From NCBI GenBank assembly GCA_905221615.1, contig CAJNDT010006013.1, forward strand, positions 1,392,915 to 1,456,914: 64,000 nucleotides of DNA. Direction: 5' to 3'. The DNA comes from Symbiodinium sp. CCMP2592 (taxonomy: Eukaryota; Sar; Dinophyceae; Suessiales; Symbiodiniaceae). Below are positions 10,568 to 46,377 of the stretch, piece by piece. A model generated the notes under the pieces. That model had not been told where the DNA came from. It did no database searches and worked only from the letters and a program-made list of their open reading frames with translations. Numbering within the stretch: the first letter of the stretch is position 1; every line of letters starts with the position of its first letter. Made by a program: the position numbers and the translations under genes.

Positions 10568-10600
<33 letters not shown>

Positions 10601-10623: not shown

Positions 10624-10792
10624 AAAGGTCAGGCTAGTACAGTTGCCTTTTTCCTTTCTTGCCATGGCATTTGTCAGCGCCTGAGCAGTCCCGGTCCCAA
10701 GTCCGGGAGGGAGTATTAGATTTACAGCTCTCTAACATCTCCCAGAGGTGAGGGTTGTCGGTATTGCGAAGCCGACAGGAGCCGTACTCAAC

Positions 10793-15653: not shown

Positions 15654-15654
15654 A

Positions 15655-15976
15655 CGGTAGGAGAGCATCAGGTGGCAGCCAGTGATACATGGCAACCAAG
15701 CCGGTTAGCTTTCAAGCTAGTGCCGAAATCATAACGCCGCGTAAGACTCTGACGACACATTCGCTTCCCACTTCACAGCTTGCAGCCCTGAGGGGCGGAG
15801 CGTGTGCAAGTGCAGCGCTGAGGCACGGCTTGCCGTGAAGAGTGACCGCGCAAGTAGTAAGCAGTGCACTAGGTCGATCCCTCGCAAATCGTGGACGATA
15901 AGTTTCACCACAGACAGTCCTCCCCCGCTGCGTGTGAATGAAATGTTGTGGTTGTTGTTGTGGTTGTTGTTGTTGG
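15655..15976 (+). other. 3' region and TTG-rich tail of LINE B
   Basis: From about 15691 it matches the 3' regions of D (40,590 onward) and E (46,106 onward), including the segment with GGGGCGGAGCGTGTGCAAG. It ends in GTGAATGAAATG followed by TTG/GTG units. The conserved segment is probably what the RT recognises on the RNA (inference). Confidence 0.85.
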
Positions 15977-21332: not shown

Positions 21333-21430
21333 GAAGGATGGCCACAGAGCCATGAGGCAAAGCCTCCGCACAATATGTGTGCCGACTTCGCTCAGCGGAC
21401 GGACCTCCTGCTGCGTGTGTGAGTGAGTGA

Positions 21431-21431
21431 A

Positions 21432-21485
<54 letters not shown>

Positions 21486-21486
21486 G

Positions 21487-21522
<36 letters not shown>

Positions 21523-21530
21523 GCTATTGC
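21431..21530. repeat. (TAC)n microsatellite, tail of F and start of G
   Basis: About 30 TAC triplets with one CGA interruption, directly after the F 3' end and directly before the truncated LINE G. Confidence 0.93.
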
Positions 21531-22513
21531 TACACCCCACAGGTTGACAGATGATCCTCGGTGGCTAACGCTGATCGATGATTGGGGTGAGGTCCATCGT
21601 CAACATGATGTGTGTGAATTTCTTGAACACATACTGCAAAAGAATGACTATGGTTTGTTCCAAGGCACATGGCAGGCAAGGTTGCCTACCATGGCAGGGG
21701 AGACGCAGCTTGTGGATACAGGGCAGTGCACTCAATCCATTGTTCTTCACATGCCTTCAACCTACCCTACGCCATCGGCCAATTCACTTAGGATTCAATC
21801 CTTGGTGGACACTTGGTGCAGGGGAATTGACAGGATACATGGTCTGACAGTCGCGCCCCCGGTGATCCTACTTCAGCTTCATCGCTTCACCAAACAGCGT
21901 GATCGTGTACTCAAAAATCACCTTAAGGTGCAGCTGGACCACGTGATCCAAATGCCTTTCTTTTCTGGGGACAGGCACAATCTGTCGCATCGTTCATACA
22001 AGCTCAAAGCATTCATTGAACACCATGGAGCCACACCCACTTCAGGACATTATACGGCCACCCTGGTCAACGATGAGGGCTCATGGAGCTGTGACGATGG
22101 CAGAGCAGCCAAAGTGAAAACCATGCGGGGTGAGCGACATCCCACTAAAACTGGCTATGCTCTTTTCTACAGTCTCGACGCTGCTCTTGCCACATCTTCC
22201 GATGAAGGTTTGGCACACACTGGCGACACACATGCTAGCACATAATGTTCCACGGAACGGTGTGTGTTGATACCTGTATTTTCTGAGATGATCAATCGTA
22301 TCATGAGCTTATAGCTCCGGGCATTTGAATATGCCTGCTCTTTCCCGACGCTTGGCGACAGGACTCTCCTCGCTGCGAGTGAAGCTGAAGCTGCTATTGC
22401 TACTGCTACTGCTACTGCTACTGCTACTGCTACCGCTACTGCTACTGCTACTGCTACTGCTACTACTGCTACTACTACTACTACTACTACTACTAGTACT
22501 ATACTACCACTAT

Positions 22514-24943: not shown

Positions 24944-27900
24944 ATGCACCAGCATTCATTTGAGAGCATTCGCAAGAAGGCCTTTCGCAAGGCTTGCAAT
25001 AAGGTTCATAGAACACAAGAAAGCATCCCGTACCGGAATGGTACGTTGACGCCTGAACATCTGCGTCGCAGTGGACTCACCCCCCCCTCCCCTCCCCCCC
25101 TCCCAGTGCAGCCTAGCTCCACGATTTCTCCTTCAGGTCCCTCAGGTTTCTCCGCCAGTTTCCGCTCGCGCCCGAGAGGCGGTCGTGCCAGCAAGTCTCT
25201 TCGTGTTCTTTCCTGGAATGCAGGGCACCTTGGCATGCAACAATGGGCAGAAGTGAAGACATGGCTTCGCACGGAGGCCAAGTCAGTCTGTGACATTCTT
25301 GTCCTTCAGGAAACCCACTGGAGTGAGACAGCAGAATTTGATGTCGAAGGCTGGCACTGCGTAAGCTCCGCCACAAAAGGGGCTGCTCGAGCACCTAAAG
25401 GTAAAGCCACTTCAGGGCAACGCCCCAAGCAAGGCGCTGCCACGCAGCCGGCTGTTCACGACACAAGCCGAGCGGACGGCGTCATGGTTCTTCTCTCTCC
25501 GCAGATAGACAAGAAGAAGATAAGATGGCGCGAGCAACGCCGGGGAAGGCTCATTCAGGTCATCTTCCCGTGGCTTGGGGCTCGTGTGCATGTACTAGCG
25601 GTTTACCAACATGCCTGGTCTTCTAAGAAGACTCCACAGCAGAACAAGGATGACCGCTCACACCTGCTCCGCGATCTGTCGGCTGCGATACGGGCCATTC
25701 CAGCGCGAGATACTTTTCTCTTGGCAGGAGACTTTAATGCTCGACTGACCCCGCAGGAGGGTCTGGTAGGTCAGTGTAGCACCAAGCCAGAGCAAACTCA
25801 GATGCAGGATGAATCGTTCCAAGCCTTAGTCTCCTCCCATCGGTTGGTAGCTCTTAACACATGGTCTAGTGGTGCAGGTCACACTTTCTTCCTGAATGGT
25901 CAGGGATCACAAATTGACTTCCTGCTCACTTCAGAAGCCTCGGCCAAGGGCCTGGCAAAGCAGTCTCGGCCGTGCAAGGATCTTCAGCTCGGCAAATGGA
26001 AGAGGGGCGGCCACCTTCCAGTCTTGGCTCAACTCAGACCCACCCAGCACTGGAATCTGCCAAAGCCTACTTGTCCTTCCACGACCTTTCATAAGGAAGC
26101 TCTAGAGACGGCTGTCCGTTCAGGTCTGCCAATAGCCGGTCGCATGCAAGACTGGGTGGGCCAGCGTCTGTCCTCTCGGACTCACACGCCTGATGAAGTT
26201 AATCAGGTACTGCTGGAGGCCTCTGCACTGTTTTTCCCCAAACCACGGCCTCAGCAAGCTCCTGAAACTGCTCAGCACCGTGCGACGCTGCGAATGTGGA
26301 GTCGAGTCGCTCATATTCGTTCTTTGCATGAGGACTCCATAACCACCTTATCCGACCTAGATCAGTCTTTGGAGGACCTGAATCGATGGCATAAGCAGGC
26401 TCTCTACTTAGCCAAGAAGGAACGACACCGAGCTTTCCAGGCTGAGGTCGATGAGGCGTGTGCCAGACACGATTCCTACATCGCACATAAGACCTTAAAG
26501 AAGCTCCGACCTTGGGAACCCCAAACTATGGCACAGCTTCAGGGACCGGATGGTCTGCTGTTGGACTCTACCTCTGAGCTCCGCCTGCTTAGAGACCACG
26601 TGGAACAGGTCTTTGCCAGACATCCGCCACTCGCACACCAGGTGGACTCGCTGCCGGAAATCCCGGCTGGTCTGCTGGCCAAGCACATAGGCTCCATCAG
26701 ACCGCACAAGGCGGTACCGCAAGGCTCTGCTCCGGCGGCTGCCTGGCGGCTCTGCTCGGCGGCTGCGGGAGAGGCGCTAGCAGCATCGCTGCAATCTCGG
26801 GCACAACGCCCATTGCCGGCTGCTGAGGTACTTCAGCCGCCCTTAAAGGATGCTGACTTGTGTTTTATCCCAAAGCCTAACAAGCCGGCCACGAAGCCTG
26901 GCAATCTACGTCCCCTCAGACGACGGCAAGGGCCTGGCGGGGGCTTGTAGAGATCAGCTGTCTCCCTACACGGCTGACTATCTTCGGGGTCTCCCACAAT
27001 TTGCCTACCAGCCACATCGCGGTCTTTCAGATGCCTTGAGCAGGGTCGTTGGTCATGTCACTCAGATACGCAATAACTGCCAGGAGGCCCGACGAACCAG
27101 GCATCAGCTTCACTCGGGACGAACTCGTCCCCAGCTAGTAGGTGGCATCTGCTTTGCACTAGACTTGTCACAAGCCTTTGACATGGTGAGCAGAACAGAC
27201 TTGCTTAGCACACTGCAGGAAGCGGGAGTCCCGCAAGACCTCATTGACCTAGTTGCCTCATTGCATGCTGGCAGTGCTTACACGTTTCGCACCCAGGGTG
27301 AAGAGGACACGGTCCAGTCCACTGCGGGCATTAAACAGGGGTGTAAGCTTGCCCCCACACTTTTTTCCATGCTTACGGGATCTTCCGGGAGCTCATAGCT
27401 CTTGTTGGGGTTCGAGCCGTGGTGGACTACCTCACGGGCTACGCAGATGACCTTACGGTTCACCGTGACATCCACTCAATGGAGGACCTGGATCGCGCTC
27501 ATGCTCTGATTGAGCAACTGTTGCAGTTGGTCCGTCGCCATGGATTTGCTGTCAACGGTGCAAAATGCACTGTTATGGTCAAACTCGAGGGCCAACAGGC
27601 GCAACGCGCCATCTCCAAGCACACTTATTGGCGCACCGCGCCTGACGGAACCCGCCATAAGATGTGGAGACTGGGAGAGTCCAAGTCTCACGAGGGCTTT
27701 CCGCTGGTGACGTCCTTTAAGTATCTCGGCGTCATGCTCTCCTACTCCAACTTCGAGAAGGCTACTCTCAAGTTCCGGTTGCAGGCACATTGCAGCAGGT
27801 ACGCCGCTTCGTTCACAACAGACGAACGGCGGGGCCTGCATCGCGGTTGCACATTTTGGCATAGCACTGTCTGGGCCACAGTAGCCTCTGGATTAGTGGA

Positions 27901-29842
27901 TGTGGGCTTGACCCTAGAGACAGCTAAACTGTTGCGGGCTTGGCACGCTCGCAAAATTCGAGCTGTCCTGAACAAGCCAGCGCACCTGACACACATATCC
28001 ACGGCTGACCTCTATGCCTCCCATGAGATCATGGACCCTGTCCGTAAGCTGCAGGCGCGACAGGCCAATCGTGTCAAGCGCTTAGGTGCTCGACGGCGGA
28101 AAACTCCTGCGGGGGACATCTCTTTAACCCAGCGCGCGCTTCTCCAGGCGGAGGCACTCTCTACTAGTTATGCAGACGTTCTGCAGCAACTTTCTAAGGA
28201 CACATCACAGCAGGAGGCCCCCCCGTCCTTCGTGTGCCCGACGTGTGCTCAGGCCTTCGACACTGAGGTCGGTCTTCGCACCCACCAGGCCCGCAAGCAT
28301 CCAGGCTCGGTCATCAGATATGTCCCTCGAGGCTTCTCCCACACCCTCTCTGTAGGAGGGCTCCCCAAGTGTGCGGCCTGCAACAGGCAATTCCCTCAGA
28401 TGAAGGGCTTAAAGGACCACTTGCTATCAGGTGCCTGCTCGGAGCCAGCTAGGCTACAGGAGCTGGATGACGCGGCGCACCCTCCCTTGGATTCGCAGCA
28501 TCAGCCCAGATTGCATCCCAGGCAGCAGCGCTTCCATGACACTCTGACAACACACACGGCTGTGGAGCTCGGACGATCTGATGAGTCTCAGGACCTTATG
28601 TCACATTGCTTGCTGTGTGGGTTCTGGACCCCGGACAATACCAAGCTCAAGTCTCACATCCGGCAGGCCCACAAACCTGAATGGGCGGCTCATGGCGCTA
28701 CAGCTGCAACTCAGAGCAGCAAATCAGGCCTGACCCTTGTCAAGGGCATGCCTTGCCCGTGCTGCCGCAAGCCTGTTACGGATAAGAGGCAGCATCCGGC
28801 ACAATGTCCGATCCTTTTTCAGATTCTGTTTTATGACTTGGTTCATGCACTTTCCCGCTGCCAGGGCGGACCGTTACGCAGGTACATGCCAGCGGTTGGC
28901 ACGACACAAGGCAACGCACCCACACGGGACGATACCACCGCTGTTGGAGCAACGCCCCAGACTCGCCAGGCAACGCCTGCAGGCCCCCTGCCACCGAAGT
29001 CAGGGACAGTAGAATCAAAGGACGGCGCGCTCGCTGCTCCTCGCTCGCTGCGCAACATCTCCAACTACTGCTATGTTAACTCAACGCTTTCGGCCCTGGT
29101 GCCGACGTGCATCTTGCTGGAGCACGGAGGGGCAAGCACCTCCCTCCATCAGGAAGTGGCTGATTCTGTCTCTGGTTCTCCTTTCACCCTGACTGCCTCT
29201 TTCACGCTTCGCCATCTTACTCCCACTTGGCGCTATGATGGCCAACAACAAGATGCTTCGGAGTTTCTAGTGGCCTTATTTGCAGGCATTACCGCCTTTC
29301 CGATTGCACGACCCTGGGAAGTCAGGGATGTAAACACTACTGAGGTCACCGATGCGGGAGGTCCGCTCGCTTTGCTGCCAGCTCCAACGACAGGTGGATC
29401 CCATGCACTTCAGGAGCTGCTCTCTCGGTGGTCTGGCCAGCCGGTGCACACCGCCTTTCGAGGGCAGCAACGACTGGTGGTTCTCACAGTGGCGCGATTT
29501 GTTGAAGGCCGCAAGCTCAGCTATGCTGTCACTGGTCTGCACCACCCCCTTCAGCTCTCGCAGTGGGCCCCGACGGGCTCCGTACAACTAGAGAAAGGAT
29601 GGGTTCAGTCCTGTATCTTCCACATAGGTGACACCCCGCACAGTGGACATTATCGCTCCCTCTGGAGGAGCAACCCCGATCAACCTTGGCTCAGCACGGA
29701 CGATGGTCGTCCGTCGGTTCAGGCCTCAGATTCAGATCTCAGGCAGGCACGCCACGGCTGCTATGTGCTGTTCGTGCGACTTGGTTCAATACCGCACACA
29801 GCGGAGGCTGGCCCTATGCCAGTCCAAGTTTCAGATGATTAA
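24944..29842 (+). pseudogene. LINE C ORF1: APE endonuclease, RT, fingers, USP-like protease (two frameshifts)
   Basis: Three frames join into one protein. The first, 24944-26950, holds a basic start, endonuclease (LSWNAGHLG near residue 89, QETHW near 121, AGDFNARL near 261, SQIDF, GGHLPV) and the start of RT up to NLRPL. A small deletion near 26920 shifts the frame. The second, about 26920-27385, has GKGLAG, LPQFAYQPHRG, motif A ALDLSQAFD and IKQGCKLAP. A 1-base loss near 27385 shifts back, and the third, to TAA at 29842, has YADD near 27439, four Cys/His fingers (near 28233, 28373, 28611, 28756), and a USP-like domain: Cys box NYCYVNS near 29064, QQQDASEF near 29242, His box SGHYRSLW near 29642 with STDDG. 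Catalytic residues survive, so decay is recent. The native product would act in target-primed insertion; the protease target is unknown. Confidence 0.9.
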
Positions 29843-30789: not shown

Positions 30790-30974
30790 AAGCCTCTCGG
30801 CTCAGGAAAGGTCAGGCTAGTACAGTTGCCTTTTCCTTTCTTGCCATGGCATTTGTCAGCGCCTGAGCAGTCCCGGTCCCAAGTCCGGGAGGGAGTATTA
30901 GATTTACAGCTCTCTAACATCTCCCAGAGGTGAGGGTTGTCGGTATTGCGAAGCCGACAGGAGCCGCACTCAAC

Positions 30975-33900
30975 ATGAGTGCTGCGAAACAGCCTAGTGG
31001 TTCGACCAAGCATCAGCCCGTTCCTAAAGGGAAGGGTAAACGCTCTTATCAAAGGGCAGCACGTAAAGCTCTGCTTGAAGGTAGTGCGGTCTATAAGGGA
31101 AGGCAGATGTCGTCGACAGAGCTTGGAGTTGCTCCGGCACATGCAAAGCCCACCAATCCCGGCAGAAGGACTCGGCCTTCGAAATTTTCAGAAGATAAGA
31201 ATCTCAGCTATCTATCCTGGAACGCAGGATCTCTCACAACAGCAGTTTGGGAAGAGTTACTCTCCGTACTGCAAAGTGCCGCATTTCAGGATGTGAAGCT
31301 GGTGGCAATTCAGGAAACCCACTGGAGGGGATCTTGGCAATTTAGCAAGTCAGGCTGGCACGTGATCAGCTCTGGTTCCACAGGGGAGAAGGGAGCCGGG
31401 GTCCTCATAATGGTGCACTCCACACTGTGCAAGTCACAGGATCTCCGCTATAACGAGGTAGTTCCAGGAAGAGTTCTCCAGGTCCGGGTGCCGAGCAACG
31501 GCATCTCACTGGACGTCTTCAGCTGCTATCAATACGTTTGGCGCTCTAAGGAGACAGTCGCTCAGAATAAGGAAACCCGGAAGCAGACCCTTCATGCCCT
31601 AAGTAAGTCCATCCGAGCTGTTCCCAATCGCAACACTCTTCTTGTGCTAGGAGATTTCAACTCCTCGCTCAAAACCGACAACAAACACGTAGGGCCATGC
31701 ACGATCCAGGCTTGCAGACTCGGGCACCGCGGATCTAAGGATCTCCAGACCCTACTGTCGGAGCACCAGCTAGTCGCAACCAACACTTGGGGAGTGCATA
31801 GACCGGCCACCCACGAACAAGGCAACTCTGTTTCACAGATTGACTTCTCGTTTGTCAGGATTGCACAGTCTCAAGGTCCTGCCAGGTTTTGCCGGCCACT
31901 AAGGACCTTCCCAGTAGCATCCTGGAGGGATGGTAGTAGGCATTTCCCCCTTCTTGGTAAGCTGAGGCACAGCAGGAGATACTCCGCCCAAGCCTCAAAA
32001 CTGTACGACCAAAAATGGCAATGGAGGATTGCTACAGACACCGTTCCCCGAAAATACAGGTATTTGCAAGGGAGGTAGACTCCCTACTTCAGGATCATCC
32101 CCAAACCTGGCAGAGCCTCCATCAAGCAATGAACTCAGCTCTAGCGACTCACTTTCCCAAGAGAAAGGAAGCAGCACAAAGATCAGATCTCAGCATCTGG
32201 GAAGAGCGCTCAGTGTTGCGCTCACTCCCACTAGCAGTTAAGGTCTTAGCAGAGTTCTTGCCCGAGCTGCAGGTCCGTGTGGTGTTCCGATGCTGGTGTT
32301 CGTTCTCCCAGCAAAGTGCACAGGCGAGGGTAGCCAAGCGTCACAAGCATGAGCGGCGGCGGCAGGAAATAGATGAACAACTCGAGCAGGCAGAGCTAAA
32401 GTCAAAGCAGGACGGGAGTCACTCCCTTTACAAGGTAATCAAGCGCTTCAGATCGGGGAGGCCCCAGGAAAGAGTTCAGCTTCGAGATTCCGAGGGTCGC
32501 TTCCTTACTGCCAAGGAAGAAAGAAGACAATTAGGGGAATATTCTCTAGACCTGTTTGGAGCAGGGGATGACTTCCCGCTTTCAGGGATCCAAGGCAGCC
32601 TGCACATCACCGAGCACGAAGTGCAAGAACAGCTGGGCACAATAAAGCTGGGTAAGGCAGTTCCAAAAGAGAGTCCTCCAGTCGTAGCCTGGCGCTCCCT
32701 AGGTCCCAAAGCAATCCGGCTAATCTCGGACACCCTAAATAGGGAAGTCACAGCCGGAAGGCTCTCGGACAGTGTCACCTCGTCACAGATCTCCTGGCTC
32801 CCAAAGCCTCCCAAGAAGCCAGACAAACCAACCTCGCTCCGTCCGATCGGGGTGATAGCACCGGAGGGCAAGGTCCTTGCCGGACTCGTAAGGAAGAGAC
32901 TTAAGTCTACCCTCCATGACCGGTGTCTCCCAGTTCGGCTTTGTCCCCATGTGTGGACCAGGCCAGGTTCAGACAGGCCCTCACCACAAGGGCCGCAGGT
33001 AAAGGACAACAGGGGCTCAAGCTCAGAGGCAGTCTCACCATGAGCGTGGACATGAGCAAAGCTTTCGGCACTGTAAACAGGCTGCGATTAAGAGAGGCCC
33101 TGGAAGCCGAACAAGCAGATCCTCTTCTGATCGAGGTGGTAGGCCATCTCCACATCAAAGCCTTGTATAAGATGACAGCCAGCGATCAGAGCTTTGAGAT
33201 AGCCACACGCAGGGGAATCAAGCAGGGATGTAAGCTCGCACCCTCATTATTTGCCTTTGCATCAGGGCTCCTCTATAGGAAGCTCTCTGGGAAAATCAGC
33301 CCAGCAGAACTGGTGAAGCTACTCACAATGTACGCAGATGATAGCTTGATCCAGTCGCATTTTGACTCTGAGGCCGGTCTCATGACAGCACTAGGGTACT
33401 GCGACCTGCTACTAGATCAGCTGGTAGAGCTTGGGTTCAAGGTCAATCCGACCAAGTCAGCAATTCTGCTACAGCTGCAAGGGGGGTCAGCCTCGACCAT
33501 TAGGAAGAAACTCTTTCGCCAGGTCGAGGGAGAGAAGTATGTTGAACTCCCTTCGGGCAGGCTCATATCGCTGCGCTACCAGGTCCCTTACTTGGGGGTC
33601 ATTCTTTCTTATCATGACTATGAAATGAAGACTCTCAAACATCGGCTGTCAGCCAGTAAGCTAGCAATGTCAGAAGTAGCCCATGCTGTTCGGAACCACC
33701 GACGAGTCTTATCAGACAGACGTCGTCTGTCGATTTGGACAATAACTGCGTGGGCATCTGCTCTGTATGCTATCCATGTGGTGGGGCTGACGCAGCAGGG
33801 ACTGCAAAAGCTCCACTCACACATGATGTACCAACTCAGATTCGTCCTGCGGAGCTACTCCCAGGAAACGAAGGAATCCAACCAGGAGCTACTCCGGAGA

Positions 33901-35514
33901 TTACGGATTCCTCACGTGAAGGAGCAGCTGCAAAAGAGAATGACCCAGTTCTTAAAGAGACAGCAACACTCAGACCCCCAGCTCCTCCCACACTATAAGT
34001 TGCGGGCTGAGGCAGTTAGCCAGACTTTGGAAGGCCTCTCCACGGACTTCTCCTCGCACCATGTGGAAGATAGGCCTCTGACCTGCGGAGAGTGTGGTGC
34101 ATGTCTCTCTGGCACCGGAGCACTCCGTCGCCACCTGCAGAAGGCTCATCCAGATTCTCAACAGTGCCTGAAAGGACCCAAATTTGATCCTATTTTGCAT
34201 TCAATGCCAGGGTCAGCAACTTGCATTGCCTGTCGGGCAACATTCCGGACAGTGTTTTATCTGCGCAAACATGTCGAAGCATCAACCTGCCCTAGGGTAG
34301 AGCTATTGCTCAGACAGCAGGAAGAGTTACCCCTAGAAGCACAGAATCGGATCTCACTAGTAGAAAGCCTCCAGTCCGATGCCCAGGACAATCCGGAAGG
34401 CGCCGCTCGAAATCCGGCGTTCCATGAGTACTTGATGGAACACTGTGCACTCTGCGGTCAGGTCCTTGTAGGCCAGAAAGGAGCCAAACAGCATTTAAAC
34501 AAGCAGCATCCTGAGGTGATGGCTAAGCTGGAGAAAACTCTCCAACCAAGACTTAATCAATTCAAGGTCTTCTTCCAAGAAGGAGATAGCTGTCGATACT
34601 GCAAACTTCGCGTGGATGCCCCGGGTAGGCATGCTCAGCAATGCGTCCCATTACTGCAGGTGCACGTACTGCAGGAGGTAGCGCGTCAGCAGCTCAGCAA
34701 GCAGCCCCGTGAATACACTCGAGCGAAGTCCACGGTATCGGCGAAGACAGCCACAACGAAGCCTTCAGATTCAACGCCAGGAATTCCTCACCCCGTGTTC
34801 AGACTGGAAGGCTTTCTCCTGCTAGCCAATACACGCAACCACTGCTATGCCAACTCAGGTCTGCAGTGTCTCCACTGGCTATCAGATCCTCCAGAGGCGG
34901 CTTTCCAAGAGGCACTTCGGATCAGCCAGCTAGCGAGAATAACCCCTGAACACAGAGTCTTCACGGAGCTCACCATGGGCTGGCTCTTTGACGGAGGCCA
35001 ACACGATTCTGCTGAGTTCCTGCAGCAAGTGTTTCGGAATATCTCTGCATCAAGATTTGGACAGTGGGAAACAAGAGCCTCAGTGCCGGAAGGTGTGATC
35101 GTGGATGAAGAAGGGGGCTCTCCCAGTCATCTTGCCACGGCGATCAAGACCAACCTACAGGACATGCTAGTGGCATGGTCGTCCCAGGAGCGCTCATGTG
35201 CTCTCATAGAAGCATCACAGCAGGTGTGCTTAGCCTTGCCGAGATTCGCAGGTGAAGCTAAGGATCACACTCGAATCACAATCTCACAGCAAGTTCAGAT
35301 CCCTGTCTTCCTGGACCACACATCCCGAGTCTCGTTCTGTACCTACACAGTAGAGGCAGTGATCATTCACCTAGGAATGGAGTCCACTAGTGGCCATTAC
35401 CGTGCAGCTGTACGCACAGCAGATGCCTGGTATGTTGGTGATGACTCCCACCCCCTAGTCCCTGTACCCTCGAAGACCCCTTGCTGCAAGAGAATAGCTA
35501 TGTCATTTTCATAG
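30975..35514 (+). pseudogene. LINE D ORF1 (EN, RT, fingers, USP), frameshifted
   Basis: Homologous to the B and E ORF1 throughout, starting at ATG 30975. The breaks are: a 2-base gain near 32006 (GACCAAAAATGG in place of GACCAGCAGG), small losses near 32914-32955 that remove the RT segment around GFVPGRGTEEA, the change AFD to AFG in motif A near 33065, and one C missing from a C-run near 35455 that alters the last residues. YADD at 33331 and the USP motifs (NHCYANS, QHDSAEF, SGHYRAAV) are still readable. With the RT core damaged this copy cannot supply its own reverse transcriptase. It is visibly more diverged from B and E than those two are from each other. Confidence 0.92.
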
Positions 35515-35565
35515 CTCGCAGCGCCGTCTCTCACGAGCCCCAGGACGTAGACAATCTCCCGAATA

Positions 35566-36465
35566 ATGTCTCTGCAAGAGTTCTTCCAGAAAGCATCGAT
35601 GGATGAGAGCTCTGCCCCTAAACGGGGAGATGCAGGTCCATCAGGTGGAGATTCTCCCCTGAAGCGACACCGTGGTGGAGCTACTCCCCAGCAAGGAGGC
35701 AGAGGACAACAGAGAGGGGGCAAAAGTAGGGGACGAGGAAGTGGAGGTCGAGGGAAAGGAGCAGCCAGAAATCAAAATGGGAGCAGTGGCACCACTCAGC
35801 AGGGACAAGGCAATGTATCGAAAGATCTGATCAATGCCATAGCGCGGCTAGCACTTCGACACGACGAGCAAATCACAGCCCTCGTGTCGGACGTGACGTT
35901 CGTCTCGTATGTTCGGACAGAAGATCACTCTATTCTCCCCCACCTATACGAAGAGTCTCAGCGAGTCAAGAACAGTCCCATAGGGATCCCTATCAAGGCA
36001 GCACTGACCCTGAAGCTTCTCCGTGAACTTAAGGAGAGACTGGTGACTACCAGCCGGGATAAAAGCATACAGGAGCGCCTGCAGAATGATGAGCTGATGA
36101 CCCCGGATGGCGATTGGCCGTTTTTGGAGTGGAGTCCCACTGATCAGAAGATGATAGAGTCGGTGGAAGAACCTATCACTACGGCTCAAGTTGTTTCAGG
36201 ATTGGGGGACGCAATCACCCGAATCTCCTCAGATCCGGAACACATCAAGCTCTTCAAAACCTCGCGGCCACTGGCGGAGAGCATGACGGGAGGACCAGTC
36301 CGAATCCAGATCCAGCTGTCAACCAGATCGGCCACATCTGATTTGCAGGACACCTTGCAGACTCTAGTCGGTAATACCGCCTTTTCGCTCATAAATGCAG
36401 ATTTTCAGCGAATGGGAACTCAGCCCTCGCCGCTGGTTCGCCAGATTCGCGATTTGCTCTCCTGA
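35566..36465 (+). CDS. LINE D ORF2: basic, gag-like protein of unknown function
   Basis: Intact 299-codon ORF, ATG 35566 to TGA 36465. In B and E the same ATG overlaps the end of ORF1 by 41 bases, so translation by termination and restart is likely. Residues 1-30 are polar and acidic; about 30-75 are Gly/Arg/Lys/Gln-rich with RGG-like repeats (RGGKSRGRGSGGRGKG), typical of RNA binding; about 85-299 form a compact helical domain. That domain is shared with the nested ORF of LINE A (LALRHDEQI, WSPTDQK, SRPLAESM), which shows it is old in these elements. I infer an RNA-packaging role like ORF1p/gag; no known domain was recognised. Two GGAG-NNN-CTCC words fall in its 5' part as GGDSP and GGATP codons. 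Confidence 0.85.
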   Translation: MSLQEFFQKASMDESSAPKRGDAGPSGGDSPLKRHRGGATPQQGGRGQQRGGKSRGRGSGGRGKGAARNQNGSSGTTQQGQGNVSKDLINAIARLALRHDEQITALVSDVTFVSYVRTEDHSILPHLYEESQRVKNSPIGIPIKAALTLKLLRELKERLVTTSRDKSIQERLQNDELMTPDGDWPFLEWSPTDQKMIESVEEPITTAQVVSGLGDAITRISSDPEHIKLFKTSRPLAESMTGGPVRIQIQLSTRSATSDLQDTLQTLVGNTAFSLINADFQRMGTQPSPLVRQIRDLLS

Positions 36466-36858
36466 TCTCTTCCGGAGGAACAGGTCATTGATCGGACTAG
36501 CCCCACGAGTGGGCCGGCCTGGTGCTAAGAGCTAAGTTGAAAAGCAACCCCCTAAGAAGCGGAGTTACTCCCACCCTGTGCACAATCGCGAGGAGCTCGA
36601 GGTATCTCTCGACGAGCTGCGAGGAGGCCCTCCCGCGGAGCACTTTGAAAGTAACCTTCTAAAGAGGAGCTACTCCCACACCAAGCATACCTGCGAGGAG
36701 CCTGGGTCATCAACGATGATCTGCGAGGAGGCCCTCCCGCAGAAGACTTTGCATGATGATAGGACTTCTGCCATAATGCCACAGCCGTTCCTCTTTTGGA
36801 TAAAGCGTTCAGGCTCAAAACTCTCAGGTTCAGCAGTTCAATCTCTCCCTCTCTCAAC
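36466..36858 (+). other. ORF2-ORF3 spacer with GGAG-NNN-CTCC words
   Basis: No gene. The palindromic word occurs at 36562, 36623, 36666 and near 36728, two of them inside repeated GCGAGGAGGCCCTCCCGC blocks. Confidence 0.7.
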
Positions 36859-37428
36859 ATGTATGACCAGACGCCGACTCACTTGGCAATGATGTTGCTC
36901 CCAACGATAGCGGCCGTTCATTACCTGCGCCAGAAGTCCCTAGGTTTGGAGGTACTCCCCTGGGTGGTGCTCACAGAGCTTCGAGAGAGAGTGAAGGCGC
37001 TTGGGCTCATCACCAAGGATGAGATCCTAAATCTTTCCGTGGAGTTACTCCCGGAAAACGGGGTCCGGCAGGTGATCAAACACCTGCATGTCATCTCTGG
37101 CATCGACGAGTGGGGGCAGATCAGGTACCGACGACGAAGAGTCCTGGCCGAGCAGGGCTTGGAATATCTCACCCTGGCTCGCATCAACTCTGGGGAACTG
37201 GTGACCCCAGAAAGCATCTCCCTCCACAGATACGATCTCGACTCTCTGGAGAGAGAGACTCACATAGTGGCATACGTGAGTAAATTCTTGCCGATCGAGC
37301 CCAGAACAGTCTATCTGGGTGAGGTGGAGGCTTTGAGGGCCACGTTCTTCGCCGAAGATCGCAAATTGAATTTGGCTACATCGGTGTGGGACGTGTCGTA
37401 CAATCGTCTCATGGCAGCCCCTCCCTGA
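36859..37428 (+). CDS. LINE D ORF3: conserved protein of unknown function
   Basis: 189 codons from ATG 36859 (an upstream TTG at 36796 is in frame but unlikely). The protein starts MYDQTPTHLAMMLLPTIAAV, with a hydrophobic helix in the first 20 residues, then mixed alpha-helical sequence (RYRRRRVLAEQGLEYLTLAR) and a C-terminal TFFAEDRKLNLATSVWDVSY. A diverged, frameshifted copy at 16535-17126 keeps the same motifs, which supports real coding. No known domain was recognised. Two GGAG-NNN-CTCC words are read in a different codon phase from those of ORF2 (LEVLP and VELLP). It sits between the gag-like ORF2 and the ADP-ribosyltransferase-like ORF4. Confidence 0.75.
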   Translation: MYDQTPTHLAMMLLPTIAAVHYLRQKSLGLEVLPWVVLTELRERVKALGLITKDEILNLSVELLPENGVRQVIKHLHVISGIDEWGQIRYRRRRVLAEQGLEYLTLARINSGELVTPESISLHRYDLDSLERETHIVAYVSKFLPIEPRTVYLGEVEALRATFFAEDRKLNLATSVWDVSYNRLMAAPP

Positions 37429-37823
37429 GCCAGATGCCAAGAGGAGATACTCCCTTAGGTGGAGACACTCCCCAATGGGGAGGAGCATCTCCCCTCGCTA
37501 AGTGTGTACAGTTGGTGGAGTTTCTCCCCAGGGGTTTTTAACAGCAGGAGAGATCAGGTGGAGCTCCTCCCCTCGCCTCGGTGGAGTTTCTCCCCCAACG
37601 AGGGAAGTATGCTGGAGTAGTTCCTTTTGAGGGGTTTTTAACAGCTCCGAGAATGCAGCCAAAAATGCTCCTTTATCTGCTCACTAAGACAAAGCTTCAT
37701 TGATGCAGGTCCCTCGTCGTGGTGGCCTGGAGCTCAGATGGCTCATCAGATGGCTCATCACCTGTCAAATCCTGAGCTCAGCCTGTGACATCACATCGCA
37801 GCTTTCTCTCAAAAGCCAGCACC
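37429..37823 (+). promoter_or_regulatory. ORF3-ORF4 spacer, dense GGAG-NNN-CTCC cluster
   Basis: Six copies of the 11-base palindromic word occur between about 37442 and 37592 (loops ATA, ACA, CAT, TTT, CTC, TTT), with two AGGGGTTTTTAACAGC blocks nearby. The same cluster, partly, is kept in B and E. It may be an RNA-protein binding or translation-control region; this is inference. Confidence 0.6.
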
Positions 37824-39044
37824 ATGTCACGACCTGATTCAACTCAAGATCCCTCGTTTCAGGATGAGTATGCGGAATTCTGCGAGCGACGGACACGGGA
37901 TCAACTTCCGTATGTGACATACAGAAATTTTTTGCGCCAGTGGAGGCGCTCCGCTCGTGCTCACGGCGAAAGTTATCCAGCACATAAAGGTGCCTCAAAA
38001 GGCACGGGTGGATCGGAAGAGTCGGGAGGGGGAAAGGGTGGAGTCACTCCCCCTCCCCCTCCCTCCAAAAAGAGAAGCACTGGGCAGAGCGAGGGTGGAG
38101 ATACTCCCCCCGCAGCAAAGGCCAAGAGTGGAGATCCTCCCTCTGGGGACCTTTCTTCACAACAGGCCACAGATGATCGCACTGAAGCGGCCATCAAAAT
38201 TCTTCAGAGTGCGGGTTATACTCCTTTTCTCAGCCTGGTCACAGCCTGCGACGGTTCCATCACCGACCTGAACAACCACAGAATTATGGTGACAGTGACC
38301 CAGCAACTTCGAGATGGCCTCAATCAGGCGGAGAGACCGACCCCTGAAATCGCCAATGCCCTCCTCGAGACTTTCTTATCCTCCCGCCGGGGCCTGGCCA
38401 ATGAACCCCTGCACTCGAAGCTTGGCTTCCCAACAGCTGAGGAAAATGGATGGTTTCGATTTGAGTATTCTTCTCCGAACATACTCCCAGCTGGAGACAG
38501 TGAGGTGGCGTTCCACGGTACACACCTGGAATGTTTGCATGGGATACTGGCAACAGGACGACTACTGCCTTCAACTCCGGATCTCACAGGCACAAGAAGC
38601 TTCGAGGACCGTCCAGGAGTGTATCTCCACAGGCTTTCAAACCGGCATCTAGCGGCCGGATACAGCTGCCTGGTGAGGATCGGTCCTCGCCACATATTCG
38701 CTCGGCCCATGATCGAGGCGGAAGCTGCACACTCTGGATCGCAAAAACGTGGCAAGAAAACAAACCAACTAATATATTCCTTTGATGCAGTGGAAATCCG
38801 AGCGCTGCTGCTACAAATCTCAACAAAGGAGACACTCTCCCTAGGCGAGTACCTCCGTGAGTGGAGCGGAATGCTGGAGATTCCACTTCGGCAGGCTCGT
38901 GACTCCTTCACAGCTCTGGGATATGACTTGCCTAGCGAAGCTACCTCGCCAGATCTAGTAAAAGAAGGAGGAGTTACTCCCCTTCCAGCTCCAGAGTCTG
39001 GAGCAAGCGTCAGGATCTACGGGTGGAGTTCCTCCCCCGACTGA
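37824..39044 (+). CDS. LINE D ORF4: ADP-ribosyltransferase-like protein
   Basis: 406 codons from ATG 37824 (ACCATGT, better than the GTG at 37785). About residues 1-60 are charged; 60-115 are a low-complexity Gly/Pro/Lys linker in which GGAG-NNN-CTCC words code GGVTP and GGDTP; 115-200 look helical; about 225-330 hold FHGTHLECLHGILATGRLLP, then GVYLHRLSNRHLAAGY. The order HGT, IL.TG, GVY, A..Y is what is seen in PARP/ART-fold enzymes (HGT binds NAD; GVY/A.Y mark the second core block). This is a motif-level match only, with no clear catalytic Glu assigned, so it may be a diverged or non-catalytic ART or a relative of the neighbouring Tpt1-like ORF5. It ends one base before an ATG. Confidence 0.6.
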   Translation: MSRPDSTQDPSFQDEYAEFCERRTRDQLPYVTYRNFLRQWRRSARAHGESYPAHKGASKGTGGSEESGGGKGGVTPPPPPSKKRSTGQSEGGDTPPAAKAKSGDPPSGDLSSQQATDDRTEAAIKILQSAGYTPFLSLVTACDGSITDLNNHRIMVTVTQQLRDGLNQAERPTPEIANALLETFLSSRRGLANEPLHSKLGFPTAEENGWFRFEYSSPNILPAGDSEVAFHGTHLECLHGILATGRLLPSTPDLTGTRSFEDRPGVYLHRLSNRHLAAGYSCLVRIGPRHIFARPMIEAEAAHSGSQKRGKKTNQLIYSFDAVEIRALLLQISTKETLSLGEYLREWSGMLEIPLRQARDSFTALGYDLPSEATSPDLVKEGGVTPLPAPESGASVRIYGWSSSPD

Positions 39045-39055
39045 AATGACAGTGA

Positions 39056-39820
39056 TCACTGACCCCAGCACAGCGACACCAAGGAGCCTCCATTGTGGCA
39101 TGGGAGGGTGAACCGGGTGATCTTGGAGACTACTGCACAGCCTCTACGGATCCAGAGACCCGCTTCTCGTTTGAAGTTTCCAAGGCGCTTGCAGCATGCC
39201 TCAGACATGGGCATAGACCGTACATCAGCGTCACTTCGGCCGGGTGGGCCAAACTCGAGGATGTGGTTTCTTGGCCAAGAGTGCAGAATCAGAACGCCAC
39301 GGCGGGCGATCTCATGGAGATTGTTCGTCGTAATACCAAAGGCCGGTACGAGTTGGGAGACTGCCAAGGTACGAAGTACATCAGGGCACTGCAAGGACAT
39401 TCTCGCTCGGATGTCAACTCATCAGAGGTCCTAGAGGAACTTACGGAGGAGATGCTCCCCGGCATGCTCTTTCACGGCACCTACTGGTCCTTGTACGACC
39501 CAATTCGTCAAGACGGCCTTCTGCCACAAAACAAGATCTCCAAGGGCCGCGGCAAAGGAGGACGTGGCAGGGAGGGACGGCAGCATATCCATTTTGTGGC
39601 TGACAGCGATTATGGGAAACCAGGTGTCTCTGGTTTCAGAGAGAACTCGTCCATGCTGGTAGCGGTCAATCCTCGCAAGGCCTCACAGTTAGGGGTGAAG
39701 TTTTTCCGTAGCAAGAACGGCGTCATCCTCACCCCTACAGAAGTGCCTCCTTCTGCCATAGAGTACTATCAGAGTCTGAAATCAGGCACTAAGTACGGAG
39801 GCAACAATAGGCCGCTCTGA
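39056..39820 (+). CDS. LINE D ORF5: Tpt1/KptA-like RNA 2'-phosphotransferase
   Basis: The frame is open from 39056 to TGA 39820; the first possible start listed is a GTG (39095), and no early ATG is in frame. An ATG at 39046, one base after the ORF4 stop, lies in another frame, so a small indel or a frameshift may have split start and body. Tpt1 motifs in order: LRH (39200-39208), SAGW and LEDV, KGRYEL near 39338, IRALQGHS near 39380, LFHGTYWSLYDPIRQDGLLP near 39468, HIHF near 39586, G.R before a beta strand near 39637, LGVKFFRSKNGVILT near 39690. These cover the Arg-His-Arg-Arg set of the family. Tpt1/KptA removes a 2'-phosphate from RNA using NAD+; some members also ADP-ribosylate RNA or DNA 5' ends. 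Its length (~240) is normal. Finding it in a retroelement is unexpected. Confidence 0.85.
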   Translation, partial: SLTPAQRHQGASIVAWEGEPGDLGDYCTASTDPETRFSFEVSKALAACLRHGHRPYISVTSAGWAKLEDVVSWPRVQNQNATAGDLMEIVRRNTKGRYELGDCQGTKYIRALQGHSRSDVNSSEVLEELTEEMLPGMLFHGTYWSLYDPIRQDGLLPQNKISKGRGKGGRGREGRQHIHFVADSDYGKPGVSGFRENSSMLVAVNPRKASQLGVKFFRSKNGVILTPTEVPPSAIEYYQSLKSGTKYGGNNRPL

Positions 39821-40084
39821 CACCAGAAAAGAGCCCCGCCAAATGGTGGAGTTGCTCCCCAAGCAGACATTGCAGCCGCCCATGTCAAAAATCTGAGTCT
39901 ATGTGCAGGTTTAATTTATCATTCATTCCCGTCAGCATCCAAGCACTCTGAGGTCAGATCTACCATTCGATGCAGAGCCTCGAGCCCAGTCCCAGCAAGA
40001 AAAAAGACAGCCAAAGGATCACAAGAAATGCAACTTATGCATGTCTGCCAGGCTCAATTCATCAGCTGTTTGATTCCAGTAGTT
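39821..40084 (+). other. ORF5-ORF6 spacer
   Basis: No gene; one GGAG-NNN-CTCC word (loop TTG) near 39846. Confidence 0.6.
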
Positions 40085-40468
40085 ATGCCCGAAACTCCTA
40101 AGAAAAGTGGTACCAGAGCGAACTCTCGCACTCCTCCACCAGTGAGACGTCGTCCTCACCTACCCAGGTCGCCATCCAGTGATGCTATCCGGGAGTCAGA
40201 CTCAGAAGGCGTGGCACCCAAGGCAGATGCTCCTAAGGGTCCGCCGCCACCGATGCCTGTCAATTTGCCGAGAAACGGATCCAGTACAGACCTGACTCCG
40301 GGAGGACCAGGCAAATCATCGGGAGCTCCGGTTAAAGGTGGAATCCCAGGAGGAGTCCCTCCCCTAGGACCCCCACCAAAAGCAGTGACCTCCACTATAT
40401 CCCATCAGGGGACTGGAGAACTCCATGTTACGAGCACTGGGAGCGGGCGCCAGGCATTCCTCTACTGA
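40085..40468 (+). CDS. LINE D ORF6: Pro-rich basic protein of unknown function
   Basis: 127 codons from ATG 40085 (open further upstream to a TTG-type start at 40028). Rich in Pro, Ser, Gly and Arg (RTPPPVRRRPHLPRSPSSD), low complexity, with a short ordinary C-terminus. One GGAG-NNN-CTCC word (loop TCC) lies in frame near 40352. No domain recognised. It could be a flexible nucleic-acid-binding protein or a chance open frame. Confidence 0.45.
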   Translation: MPETPKKSGTRANSRTPPPVRRRPHLPRSPSSDAIRESDSEGVAPKADAPKGPPPPMPVNLPRNGSSTDLTPGGPGKSSGAPVKGGIPGGVPPLGPPPKAVTSTISHQGTGELHVTSTGSGRQAFLY

Positions 40469-40877
40469 GCATCTCACTGCCTCATCGACTCTTTTACAAC
40501 ATAGAGCTTGTGGTTCGTACTGAGCCATCACAGCGAGTCTAGAGAACGTTCGCGACAGCTGCTGAGTGCAAAATGTCCCGCAGCAAGTCAGCCAGTGACA
40601 TATTGCAACCAAGCCGGAAAGCTCTTTGCTAGTGCCGAAATCCTAAATCGCATCCGACTCTGCAGACACACTCCCATCCCACTTCACAGCTTGCAGCCTT
40701 GAGGGGCGGAGCGTGTGCAAGTGCTGTGTTGAGGCACGGCTTGCCGTGAAGAGTGACCGCGCATGTAGCAAGCAGGGCACTAGGTCGATCCCTCGCAAAG
40801 CGTGGACGAAAAGTTTCACCAAAGACAGTTCCTCCCCCGCTGCGTGTGAATGAAATGTTGTTGTTGTTGTTGTTGAC
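40469..40877 (+). other. 3' region and (TTG)n tail of LINE D
   Basis: From about 40590 it matches the 3' regions of B and E, ends GTGAATGAAATG plus TTG repeats, and is followed at once by the 5' end of E. Confidence 0.88.
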
Positions 40878-41063
40878 AAGCCTCTCGGCTCAGGAAAGGT
40901 CAGGCTAGTACAGTTGCCTTTTTCCTTTCTTGCCATGGCATTTGTCAGCGCCTGAGCAGTCCCGGTCCCAAGTCCGGGAGGGAGTATTAGATTTACAGCT
41001 CTCTAACATCTCCCAGAGGTGAGGGTTGTCGGTATTGCGAAGCCGACAGGAGCCGTACTCAAC

Positions 41064-44000
41064 ATGAGTGCTGCGAAACAGCCTAGTGGTTCGACCAAGC
41101 ATCAGCCCGTTCCTAAAGGGAAGGGTAAACGCTCTTATCAAAGGGCAGCACGTAAAGCTCTGCTTGAAGGTAGTGCGGTCTACAAGGGAAGGACGATGTC
41201 GTCAACAGAGCTTGGAGTTGCTCCGGCACATGTAAAGCCCACCAATCCCGGCAGAAGGACTCGGCCTTCGAAATTTACAGAAGATAAGAATCTCAGCTAT
41301 CTATCCTGGAACGCAGGATCTCTCACAACAGCAGTTTGGGAAGAGTTACTCTCCGTACTGCAAAGTGCCGCATTTCAGGATGTGAAGCTGGTAGCAATTC
41401 AGGAAACACACTGGAGGGGCTCTTGGCAATTCAGCAAGTCAGGCTGGCACGTGATCAGCTCTGGTTCCACAGGGGAGAAGGGAGCCGGGGTCCTCATAAT
41501 GGTGCACTCCACGCTGTGCAAGTCACAGGATCTTCGCTACAACGAGGTTGTTCCAGGAAGAGTTCTCCAGGTCCGGGTGCCGAGCAACGGCATCTCACTG
41601 GACGTCTTCAGCTGCTATCAATACGTTTGGCGCTCTAAGGAGACAGTCGCTCAGAATAAGGAAACCCGGAAGCAGACCCTTCACTCCCTAAGTAAGTCCA
41701 TCCGAGCTGTTCCCAATCGCAACACTCTCCTTGTGCTAGGAGATTTTAACTCCTCGCTCAAAACCGACAACAAACACGTAGGGCCATGCACGATCCAGGC
41801 TTGCAGACTCGGGCATCGGGGATCTAAGGATCTCCAGACCCTACTGTCGGAGCACCAGCTAGTCGCAACCAACACTTGGGGAGTGCATAGACCAGCCACC
41901 CACGAACAAGGCAACTCTATTTCACAGATTGACTTCTCGTTTGTCAGGATTGCACAGTCCCAAGGCCCCGCCAGGTTTTGCCGGCCACTAAGGACCTTCC
42001 CAGTTGCATCCTGGAGGGATGGTAGTAGGCATTTCCCCCTTCTTGGTAAACTGAGGCACAGCAGGAGATACTCCGCCCAAGCCTCAAAACCCTATGACCA
42101 GCAGGCAATGGAGGACTGCTACAGACACCGTTCCCCGAAAATACAGGCATTTGCCAGGGAGGTAGACTCCCTCCTTCAGGATCATCCCCAAACCTGGCAG
42201 AGTCTCCATCAAGCAATGAACTCAGCCCTCGCGACTCACTTTCCCAAGAGAAAGGAAGCAGCACAAAGATCAGATCTCAGCATCTGGGAAGAGCGCTCTG
42301 TGTTGCGCTCACTCCCACTAGCAGTCAAGGTCTTAGCAGAGTTCTTGCCCGAGCTGCAGGTCCGTATGGTGTTCCGATGCTGGTGCTCGTTCTCCCAGCA
42401 AAGTGCACAGGCGAGGGTAGCAAAGCGTCACAAGCAGGAGCGGCGGCGGCAGGAAATAGATGAACAACTCCAGCAGGCAGAGCTTAAGTCCAAGCAGGAC
42501 GGGAGTCATTCCCTTTACAAGGTAATCAAGCGCTTCAGGTCGGGGAGGCCCCAGGAAAGAGTTCAGCTTCGTGATTCTGAGGGTCGCTTCCTTACTGCCA
42601 AGGAAGAAAGAAGGCAATTAGAGGAATATTCCCTAGACCTGTTTGGAGCAGGGGATGACTTCCCACTTTCAGGGATACAAGGCAGCCTGCGCATCACTGA
42701 GCAAAAAGTGCAAGAACAGCTTGGCACAATAAAGCTGGGCAAGGCGGTTCCTAAAGAGAGTCCTCCCGTAGTAGCCTGGCGCTCCCTAGGTCCCCAAGCA
42801 ATTCGGCTAATCTCGGACACCCTTGATAGGGAAGTCACTGCAGGAAGGCTCTCGGACAGTGTCACCTCGTCACAGATCTCCTGGCTCCCAAAGCCTCCCA
42901 AGAAGCCAGACAAACCAACCTCACTCCGTCCGATCGGGGTGATAGCACCTGAGGGTAAGGTCCTAGCCGGACTCGTGAGGAAGAGACTCAAGTCTACCCT
43001 CCAGCTAGCAATGACCGGCGTCTCTCAGTTCGGCTTTGTCCCAGGCAGGGGCACAGAGGAGGCTATCTGCAAGGCCCTCACACATGTGGACCAGGCCAGG
43101 TTCAGACAGGCCCTCACCACTAGGGCTGCAGGTAAGGGACAACAGGGGCTCAAGCTCAGAGGCAGTCTCACCATGAGCGTGGACATGAGCAAAGCTTTTG
43201 ACACTGTAAACAGGCTGCGATTAAGAGAGGCCCTGGAAGCCGAACAAGCAGATCCTCTTCTGATAGAGGTGGTAGGCCATCTCCACATCAAAGCCTTGTA
43301 CAAGATGACAGCCAGCGATCAGAGCTTTGAGATAGCCACACGCAGGGGAATCAAGCAGGGATGTAAGCTAGCACCCTCTTTATTCGCCTTTGCATCAGGG
43401 CTTCTCTTTAGGAAGCTCTCTGGGAAAATCAGCCCAGCAGAACTAGTGAAGCTCCTCACAATGTACGCAGATGATAGCTTGATCCAGTCGCATTTCGACT
43501 CTGAGGCCGGCCTCATGACAGCACTAGGGTACTGCGACCTGCTTCTGGATCAGCTGGTAGAGCTTGGGTTCAAGGTCAATCCGTCCAAGTCAGCAATTCT
43601 GCTACAGCTGCAAGGGGGCTCAGCCTCGACCATTAGGAAGAAACTCTTTCGCCAGGTCGAGGGAGAGAAGTATGTTGAACTCCCTTCGGGCAGGCTGATA
43701 TCGCTGCGCTATCAGGTCCCATACTTGGGGGTCATTCTTTCTTATCACGACTATGAAATGAAGACTCTCAAACATCGGCTGTCATCCAGTAAGCTTGCAA
43801 TGTCAGAAGTAGCCCATGCAGTTCGGAACCACCGAGTCTTATCAGACAGACGTCGTCTGTCGATTTGGACAATAACTGCGTGGGCCTCTGCTCTGTATGC
43901 ACTCCACGTGGTGGGGATGACACAGCAGGGATTGCAAAAGCTCCATTCACACATGATGTACCAACTCAGATTCGTCCTGCGGAGTTACTCCCAGGAAACG

Positions 44001-45737: not shown

Positions 45738-45966
45738 GAGCTCTGCCCCTAAACGGGGAGACGCAGGTCCGTCAGGTGGAGATTCTCCCCTGAAGCGACA
45801 GCGTGGTGGAGGTACTCCCCAGCAACGAGGCAGAGGACAACATCGAGGGGGCAAAAGCAGGGGACGAGGAAGCGGAGGCCGAGGGAATGGAGCAGCCAGA
45901 AACCAAAATGGGAACAGTGGCAACACTCAGCAGGGACAAGATCGTCTCATGGCAGCCTCTTCCTGA
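45697..45966 (+). pseudogene. Truncated ORF2 of LINE E
   Basis: 90 codons: it keeps the acidic start and the whole RGG-like basic linker of ORF2, then crosses a deletion junction near 45939 into the former ORF3 end (DRLMAASS). The conserved ORF2 domain is gone. What is left could still bind RNA, which is inference. Confidence 0.8.
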
Positions 45967-46377
45967 GCCAGACGCCTTGCGGAGATGCTCCCTTAGGAGG
46001 AGACTCTCCCCAACAATCGGAGGAGTTTCTCCCCTTGCCATGTGTGTACAGCTGGTGGAGTTTCTCCCCAGCAGCTGAGTGCAGAATGATCTGCTGCCAA
46101 TCAGCCAGTGATACATTGCAACCAAGCCGGTTAGCGTTCAAGCTAGTGCCGAAATCATAACGCCGTATAAGACTCTGAAGACACATTCGCTTCCCACTTC
46201 ACAGCTTGCAGCCCTGAGGGGCGGAGCGTGTGCAAGTGCAGCGCTGAGGCACGGCTTGCCGTGAAGAGTGACCGCGCAAGTAGTAAGCAGGGCACTAGGT
46301 CGATCCCTCGCAAAGCGTGGACGATAAGTTTCACCACAGACAGTCCTCCCCCGCTGCGTGTGAATGAAATGTTGTTG
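45967..46377 (+). other. 3' region of LINE E
   Basis: Contains GGAG-NNN-CTCC words near 45973, 45998, 46020 and 46055, then the conserved 3' segment and a short TTG tail. Confidence 0.85.

Follow-up and report, generated by a model that had tools for sequence, protein, structure and literature searches.

A ten-kilobase retrotransposon with genes beyond reverse transcription

We analysed a 64,000-nucleotide stretch of the genome of the dinoflagellate Symbiodinium sp. CCMP2592 (contig CAJNDT010006013.1, positions 1,392,915 to 1,456,914; hereafter the window, with coordinates counted from its first nucleotide), which holds several long interspersed nuclear elements (LINEs). The subject of this work is one of these, element D (30790–40875, plus strand), a retrotransposon copy of about 10 kb delimited by BLAST against the window and by a shared 5' boundary. 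To judge from its architecture, D is a non-long-terminal-repeat (non-LTR) retrotransposon: a reverse transcriptase (RT) and an apurinic/apyrimidinic endonuclease (APE) are combined in one open reading frame (ORF), and long terminal repeats are absent. Comparison of D against the window revealed no terminal repeat within it, and the sole internal repeat listed lies between ORF2 and ORF3 (36541–36751, plus strand), where about 105 nt of spacer sequence are duplicated in tandem, the halves being 74% identical. The 5' boundary lies between AAG and CCTCTCGGCTCAGG and is common to 15 other copies, whereas the other terminus comprises a conserved 3' end (40556–40863, plus strand), which BLAST recovers in long and short copies alike, and a (TTG)n tail (40858–40875, plus strand) within which the next copy, C, begins.

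Copies A (10607–15961), D and C (40878–46377) constitute one family within the window, of which D is the only long copy. Over the ORF1 part, D is 94.5% identical to A (10582–15558) and to C (40856–45940), A and C are 99.3% identical across 4986 aligned positions holding ORF1, and the 3' end of D matches those of C and A at 88%. As the initial annotation had described, BLAST and reading of the ORFs place ORF2 to ORF6 on one strand between ORF1 and the conserved 3' end, an arrangement that, as read from the DNA, would be polycistronic.

ORF1 in D (30918–35514, plus strand), recognized by Pfam and by its intact homologs in A and C, is broken into three overlapping pieces in three frames (30918–32078, 31961–33043 and 32920–35514); it is a single frame in A (10748–15454, 1568 residues) and C (41019–45737, 1572 residues). 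Its RT domain matches PF00078 (RVT_1; E 1e-21), and the nearest solved RT in the PDB is that of human LINE-1 ORF2p (E 4e-9). The C-terminus is a ubiquitin-specific protease of family C19 (PF00443, UCH; E 3.9e-11, 43.5 bits against a cut-off of 23.9), and a pattern search in copy C recovered the NHCYANSGLQCL and SGHYRA boxes, which we take to be the Cys/His boxes of this protease. Run directly on ORF1, the endonuclease profile gives E 0.014, below the cut-off; residues 80–588 match window positions 25163–26749 at 2e-52, and the protein encoded there matches Exo_endo_phos at 1.7e-13. The motifs QETHW, GDFN and SQIDF, presumably those of the endonuclease, are also present in ORF1 of copy C by pattern search.

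A Tpt1/KptA family protein normally fused to ORF4

ORF5 (39095–39820, plus strand, 241 residues) is, by family, a Tpt1/KptA RNA 2'-phosphotransferase with a predicted activity, bearing out its initial annotation as Tpt1-like. It matches PF01885 at E 2.6e-38 (132.3 bits, cut-off 26) over profile positions 5–176 of 177, and tRNA 2'-phosphotransferases in the PDB at E-values down to 3.9e-18. The Arg-His-Arg-Arg tetrad is kept: aligned by eye, R37, H38 and two later arginines correspond to R40, H41, R86 and R150 of human TRPT1, residues reported as needed in that enzyme (PMC6582358; see also PMC6333775).

Upstream of it, ORF4 (37824–39044, plus strand, 406 residues) forms the N-terminal half of what is usually a single protein. 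ORF4 and ORF5 make up one frame of 651–663 residues from the ATG in the eight copies compared, and ORF5 lies within an open frame of at least 593 residues in 126 of 150 scored genomic copies (665 residues in 88 of the 150). On this comparison of frames, the split in D is a frameshift in what is normally one gene, and the element therefore has four extra genes rather than the five extra ORFs first counted, although the ORFs themselves are real.

ORF4 carries a weak HGT motif like that of ADP-ribosyltransferases (ARTs) and resembles these enzymes only around it. The Pfam PARP profile gives E 0.00024 (21.1 bits) on the fused ORF4-5 protein and about 0.1 (12.6 bits) on ORF4 alone, where eight of eight members match at such a level; both scores lie below the cut-off of 26.7. 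A comparison of ORF4 with three host PARP stretches lends no real support (hhalign probability 4.6%), a PDB search with ORF4 returned no match, and the notion that ORF4 is itself a Tpt1 relative was rejected by profile comparison (hhalign probability 0.8%). Thus, of the RNA or protein modification system that had been proposed for the element, the RNA side stands, in that one extra ORF belongs to an RNA-processing enzyme family, whereas the protein-modifying, ADP-ribosyltransferase-like role of ORF4 is weakly supported. Weak PARP-profile matches also occur in 707-residue open frames at C251:4130–4243 and C5081:232910–233023; these are possibly diverged relatives of ORF4.

The remaining ORFs are less readily classified. 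ORF2 (35566–36465, plus strand, 299 residues), a putative gag-like protein in the initial annotation, has an RGG-rich N-terminus, and where ORF1 is open its ATG sits inside the 3' end of ORF1 in a different frame; it has no Pfam or NCBIfam match, and its PDB matches are at E 0.75 or worse. Homologs of ORF2 occur in two other LINEs of the genome, namely EL0 in the window (E 5e-13) and a second Tpt1-bearing family described below (E 5e-10), each E-value applying to a single comparison. In EL0 the homolog (3115–4146, plus strand) is nested in another frame inside the 1645-residue endonuclease-RT-ubiquitin-protease frame, giving two overlapping open frames. ORF3 (36859–37428, plus strand, 189 residues) and the proline-rich ORF6 (40085–40468, plus strand) have no convincing relatives in the libraries tried. 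ORF6 most likely starts at the methionine of MPETPKK, at about 40085; it is 172 residues long in three related copies, from which the C-terminus in D departs (by eye). Beyond the genome, no relatives of ORF1, ORF2, ORF3 or ORF4 were found in viral contigs, none of ORF4 in genome contigs or phages, and PADLOC returned no match for the three proteins submitted; for ORF5, phages yielded only distant matches (40 records, less than 60% identity).

Recurrence in the genome and purifying selection

Searches of the window's own genome (1.1 Gb) gave lists of 150 scored matches each for ORF5 and ORF3. The ORF5 matches, scored from 772 candidates, are 81–100% identical, and 20 of them, picked for spread, were fetched with 10 kb each, ORF5 being present by choice. 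ORF2-3-4-5-6 occur in this order in all 20, with an ORF1 match upstream in 19 (none in the stretch for L027); 13 include the 5' end and six hold ORF1 as one full-length match of 1572 residues. Several of the fetched copies are frameshifted, and two (L013 and L023) have an interruption of more than 1 kb within ORF4. From the other direction, 114 of the 150 listed ORF3 matches are followed on their strand by an ORF5 match (median gap 1639 nt), and 20 of 82 scored matches to the ORF1 C-terminus have one 3.3–5.1 kb downstream. The initial annotation had allowed that ORF4-6, if confined to this copy, would be a chance insertion; the 150 scored ORF5 copies and the uniform order in those fetched argue instead that the extra ORFs belong to the retroelement and recur between the same ends. 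Diverged ORF3 homologs are likewise found genome-wide, 58–67% identical to that of D over the aligned part, and by eye these relatives still hold pieces of ORF2, ORF4 or ORF5 nearby, one of them (L030) being rearranged.

Purifying selection acts on ORF1 and on every extra ORF. Pairwise ratios of nonsynonymous to synonymous divergence (dN/dS), computed with our own NG86 script on copies chosen for open frames and leaving aside pairs with dS of 0.02 or less in ORF1 to ORF5, are 0.08–0.10 for ORF1 (seven copies), 0.07–0.34 for ORF2 (11 rows), 0.12–0.31 for ORF3 (11 rows), 0.09–0.25 for ORF4-5 (eight copies) and 0.11–0.27 for ORF6 (six copies). The ORF6 range leaves out L010, L011 and L012, which were read in the wrong upstream frame (0.44–1.09), and keeps L015 and L026 with an upstream extension. 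This synonymous excess in every ORF implies that the proteins were selected while the subfamilies diverged.

Tpt1 in other LINE families

A genome search with PF01885 gave 1550 first-look candidates, of which 150 were scored. Judged by the length of the frame and the span of the profile, 15 of these appear to form a second family, in which Tpt1 sits in other and often longer frames; three were read. In two of them, L035 (Tpt1 frame at 3479–7984) and L036, Tpt1 and endonuclease share one open frame of 1501 and 1535 residues, with Pfam E-values for the two domains of 1.2e-44 and 1.3e-10 in L035 and 1.7e-44 and 1.6e-8 in L036. Downstream of L035, the adjoining stretch L037 (C2857:764200–776200) holds an RT in the following frame, the ORF2 homolog noted above and what reads by eye as the beginning of a ubiquitin-protease domain. 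The RT in L036 is on the opposite strand and is therefore not that copy's own, and no endonuclease was seen in the 3.5 kb of L033, a further member. Between L033 and L035/L036 the Tpt1 domain has a dN/dS of 0.12, the parts between Tpt1 and endonuclease 0.18–0.45, and the region before Tpt1 0.52 or no value, regions with too few sites being left out. In another arrangement, L039 (C1360:4000–9500), one of two rows with 757-residue frames, has Tpt1 in such a frame with the endonuclease and pre-RT region in a separate frame downstream.

Tpt1 is thus found in three arrangements: downstream and fused to ORF4, upstream within the endonuclease frame, and as a separate upstream ORF. The presumed host Tpt1 (L034) is 31% identical to the element ORF5. 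In a tree of ten Tpt1 sequences the element group has a support of 56/81, with long branches meeting, and a single capture is not separated from several.

Short copies

Copy C (40878–46377, plus strand), head to tail after D, has ORF1 intact and ORF2-6 mostly deleted, and retains pieces of ORF2, the end of ORF3 and the ORF3/ORF4 spacer. Copy A (10607–15961, plus strand), delimited by BLAST, is like C with other deletion ends: in both, the beginning of ORF2 and part of the ORF3/ORF4 spacer survive, cut at different points, between the same element ends. Splicing was considered as the source of these deletions and rejected, as their ends differ and no AG acceptor is visible.

Genome-wide, 82 of 2732 candidate matches to the ORF1 C-terminus and 40 of 265 to the 3' end were scored. 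For 11 of the 82, the 3' end lies 332–490 nt downstream, and in seven of these at exactly 349 nt, the spacing in copy C; one deleted form has therefore itself multiplied.

Insertion target, head-to-tail arrays and spliced leader

In all 16 copies examined at their 5' boundary (13 fetched, together with A, C and D), NTG-phase repeats in the preceding 60 nt exceed the 99th percentile of background, from which we conclude that the family inserts into (TTG)n-like microsatellites. Any target-site duplication is indistinguishable from the (TTG)n-like repeats in which the copies sit. Such a repeat links D to C, head to tail, and among the 150 ORF5 places there are seven pairs spaced 10.1–11.4 kb apart on the same strand. 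At C890:314891, 324997 and 335103, three ORF5 copies stand exactly 10,106 nt apart on one strand, as a head-to-tail array.

The exact 5' 23-mer of the element occurs 220 times in the genome (control 0), and the dinoflagellate spliced leader (sequence from PMC6050394) has 429 exact matches (reversed control 0), which marks the host as a dinoflagellate. The two come together in one element copy (L040, C528:4050–4500, minus strand), in which (TTG)n is followed by the complete spliced leader and this in turn by the element's CCTCTCGG; element RNA can therefore be trans-spliced. A resemblance between the first 17 nt of the element and the spliced leader is suggestive only, its score being equalled by 187 of 40,000 random 17-mers. 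Spliced-leader relics before each ORF were also sought as marks of gene capture and discarded, with uncorrected p-values of 0.02–0.91 against random 120-mers.

A candidate hairpin array

The part of D downstream of ORF1 is studded with putative RNA hairpins of the form NG-W-GGAG-nnn-CTCC-CN, with 14 strict matches between 35644 and 40364, on this strand only and in coding and non-coding parts. The motif GGWGGAGWYNCTCCCC, allowing up to two mismatches, is matched 36 times in the window, where 0.96 matches would be expected. Every one of the 20 fetched copies has 9–15 occurrences of the strict form GGWGGAGNNNCTCCCC, all on the element strand and downstream of the ORF1 matches; the motif is absent from L033–L039. 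The stem positions covary: of 81 distinct relaxed instances, 64 pair position 1 with position 16 (40.0 when shuffled) and 72 pair position 2 with position 15 (53.0 when shuffled); neither value is reached in any of 5000 shuffles, a count that is not an exact probability because differing homologous places enter it repeatedly. Lone 16-mers fold slightly better than shuffles (z -1.0 to -1.35), and the 148-nt cluster at 37452–37599 does so with z -2.5. Against a simple hairpin model, one of four 16-mers prefers another pairing, and the best fold of the cluster is not built from separate hairpins.

A proposed role for Tpt1 in the element's life cycle

Together, these observations make it likely that D is a copy of a young, high-copy LINE family of about 10 kb, the extra ORFs of which are genes of the element, with the element's own RNA as the most likely object of ORF4-5. 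ORF1 would direct cDNA insertion to (TTG)n-like microsatellites; where the (TTG)n tail of an earlier copy serves as the target, a head-to-tail array would result. Using NAD+, the Tpt1 domain would clear the 2'-phosphates that remain where cut RNA has been religated and that, we infer, should block reverse transcription; alternatively, it may cap 5'-phosphate RNA ends with ADP-ribose. Either way, the long RNA template would stay readable. Both reactions are known Tpt1 chemistries (PMC6333775, PMC6582358). Considered separately, and given that the protein is made, action of ORF4-5 on element RNA is a tentative proposal, with a predicted activity, a presumed substrate and a putative place in the cycle. 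That Tpt1 is a working part of dinoflagellate LINE retrotransposition in general, as at least three LINE families with three arrangements suggest, may or may not hold, and we see the case as evenly balanced.

Several observations weigh against this account. Short forms lacking most of ORF2-6 have been amplified, with 98–100% identity in the ORF1 C-terminus, which makes the ORF2-6 cassette dispensable in cis; most simply, long copies would provide it in trans. In the window, Tpt1 was not seen in the LINE at 24944–29842 or in EL0, even with the stretch L038 upstream of the latter included. The spliced leader, searched as an exact pattern, precedes only one of the 220 exact 5' ends; nearly all insertions thus derive from leaderless RNA or have lost the leader. 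Finally, the signal of selection comes from copies chosen for their open frames.

Among other explanations, the one that fares best, albeit unlikely, is that ORF4-5 ADP-ribosylates the 5'-phosphates of the nicked target or host factors, thereby holding off repair or defence, rather than modifying element RNA. Human TRPT1 modifies 5'-phosphorylated DNA as well as RNA (PMC6582358), virus-coded KptA has been discussed in a setting of host conflict (PMC9503650), and ORF4 may be a second ART-like domain, given the PARP match of the fused protein; however, that assignment is weak, and canonical Tpt1, with its RNA lobe, has the 2'-phosphate of RNA as its substrate (PMC6333775).

It is less probable still that ORF2-6 are a passenger cassette captured by a LINE that needs only ORF1. 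The amplified short forms, which keep ORF1 and lose most of the cassette, are what such a history would leave, but products supplied in trans could serve these forms, every extra ORF has a dN/dS far below 1, and homologs of Tpt1 and ORF2 recur in other LINE families in other arrangements. We give even less credence to an ORF4-5 protein that is translated but catalytically idle, with an RNA-binding or structural role. That host sequence was inserted by chance into one LINE copy, as the solitary long copy in the window might suggest, is refuted by the same gene order in 20 of 20 fetched copies and by the cassette pieces persisting in A and C, and we regard it as having next to no chance of being correct.

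Comparison with known systems and significance

Like APE-type LINEs, the D family has an endonuclease and RT in one ORF, a 3' repeat tail and no terminal repeats; it differs from them in its C-terminal ubiquitin protease, its four downstream ORFs including Tpt1 and its length of about 10 kb. The R1-clade LINEs Kibi, Koshi and Mino target microsatellites, and D's family shares with them the insertion into a simple repeat, here (TTG)n-like. Eukaryotic retrotransposons with captured methyltransferases, reportedly described by de Mendoza in 2018, are similar in having captured a host-type enzyme, and differ in that theirs serves DNA methylation in place of RNA 2'-phosphate chemistry. ORF5 shares with Tpt1/KptA enzymes the whole Pfam domain, the tetrad and the HGT motif, and differs in that a retrotransposon encodes it, as a fusion to ORF4. 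A KptA domain is also known from polyproteins of a few positive-strand RNA viruses (PMC9503650), which are likewise mobile RNA replicators with their own KptA, the carrier here being a LINE; the main text of that paper contains no words beginning with retrotranspos, retroelement or transposon. Our search of the open-access literature (most subscription papers and Repbase lay outside it) turned up neither a description of a retrotransposon with Tpt1 nor one of a dinoflagellate LINE with a ubiquitin-specific protease. The machinery is that of a LINE, and the gene content is without an equivalent in the open-access literature searched.

Homologs of Tpt1 are known from all three domains of life, and their role beyond fungal tRNA splicing is described as an open question (PMC6333775, PMC6582358). 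That selection maintains Tpt1 in retrotransposons of more than one family suggests a role that can be tested, namely mending a replicating RNA or modifying its ends. If the proposal holds, NAD-dependent repair of RNA ends or 2'-phosphates would add a step not recognised before to the life cycle of dinoflagellate LINEs, and the spliced-leader system and the hairpin array would share in expressing a polycistronic LINE. The known cargo of LINEs would also be widened to a ubiquitin protease, an RNA enzyme and further uncharacterised proteins in one unit, in a host setting where genomes are shaped by retroposition and spliced-leader trans-splicing.

Other remnants in the window

A window search located an old ORF3 relic at 16553–17111 (plus strand), 50–57% identical and derived from a diverged relative. 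In addition, tblastn with ORF1 and EL0 detected two more ubiquitin-protease-like fragments at 20802–21332 and 21427–22245, apparently remnants of other LINEs.

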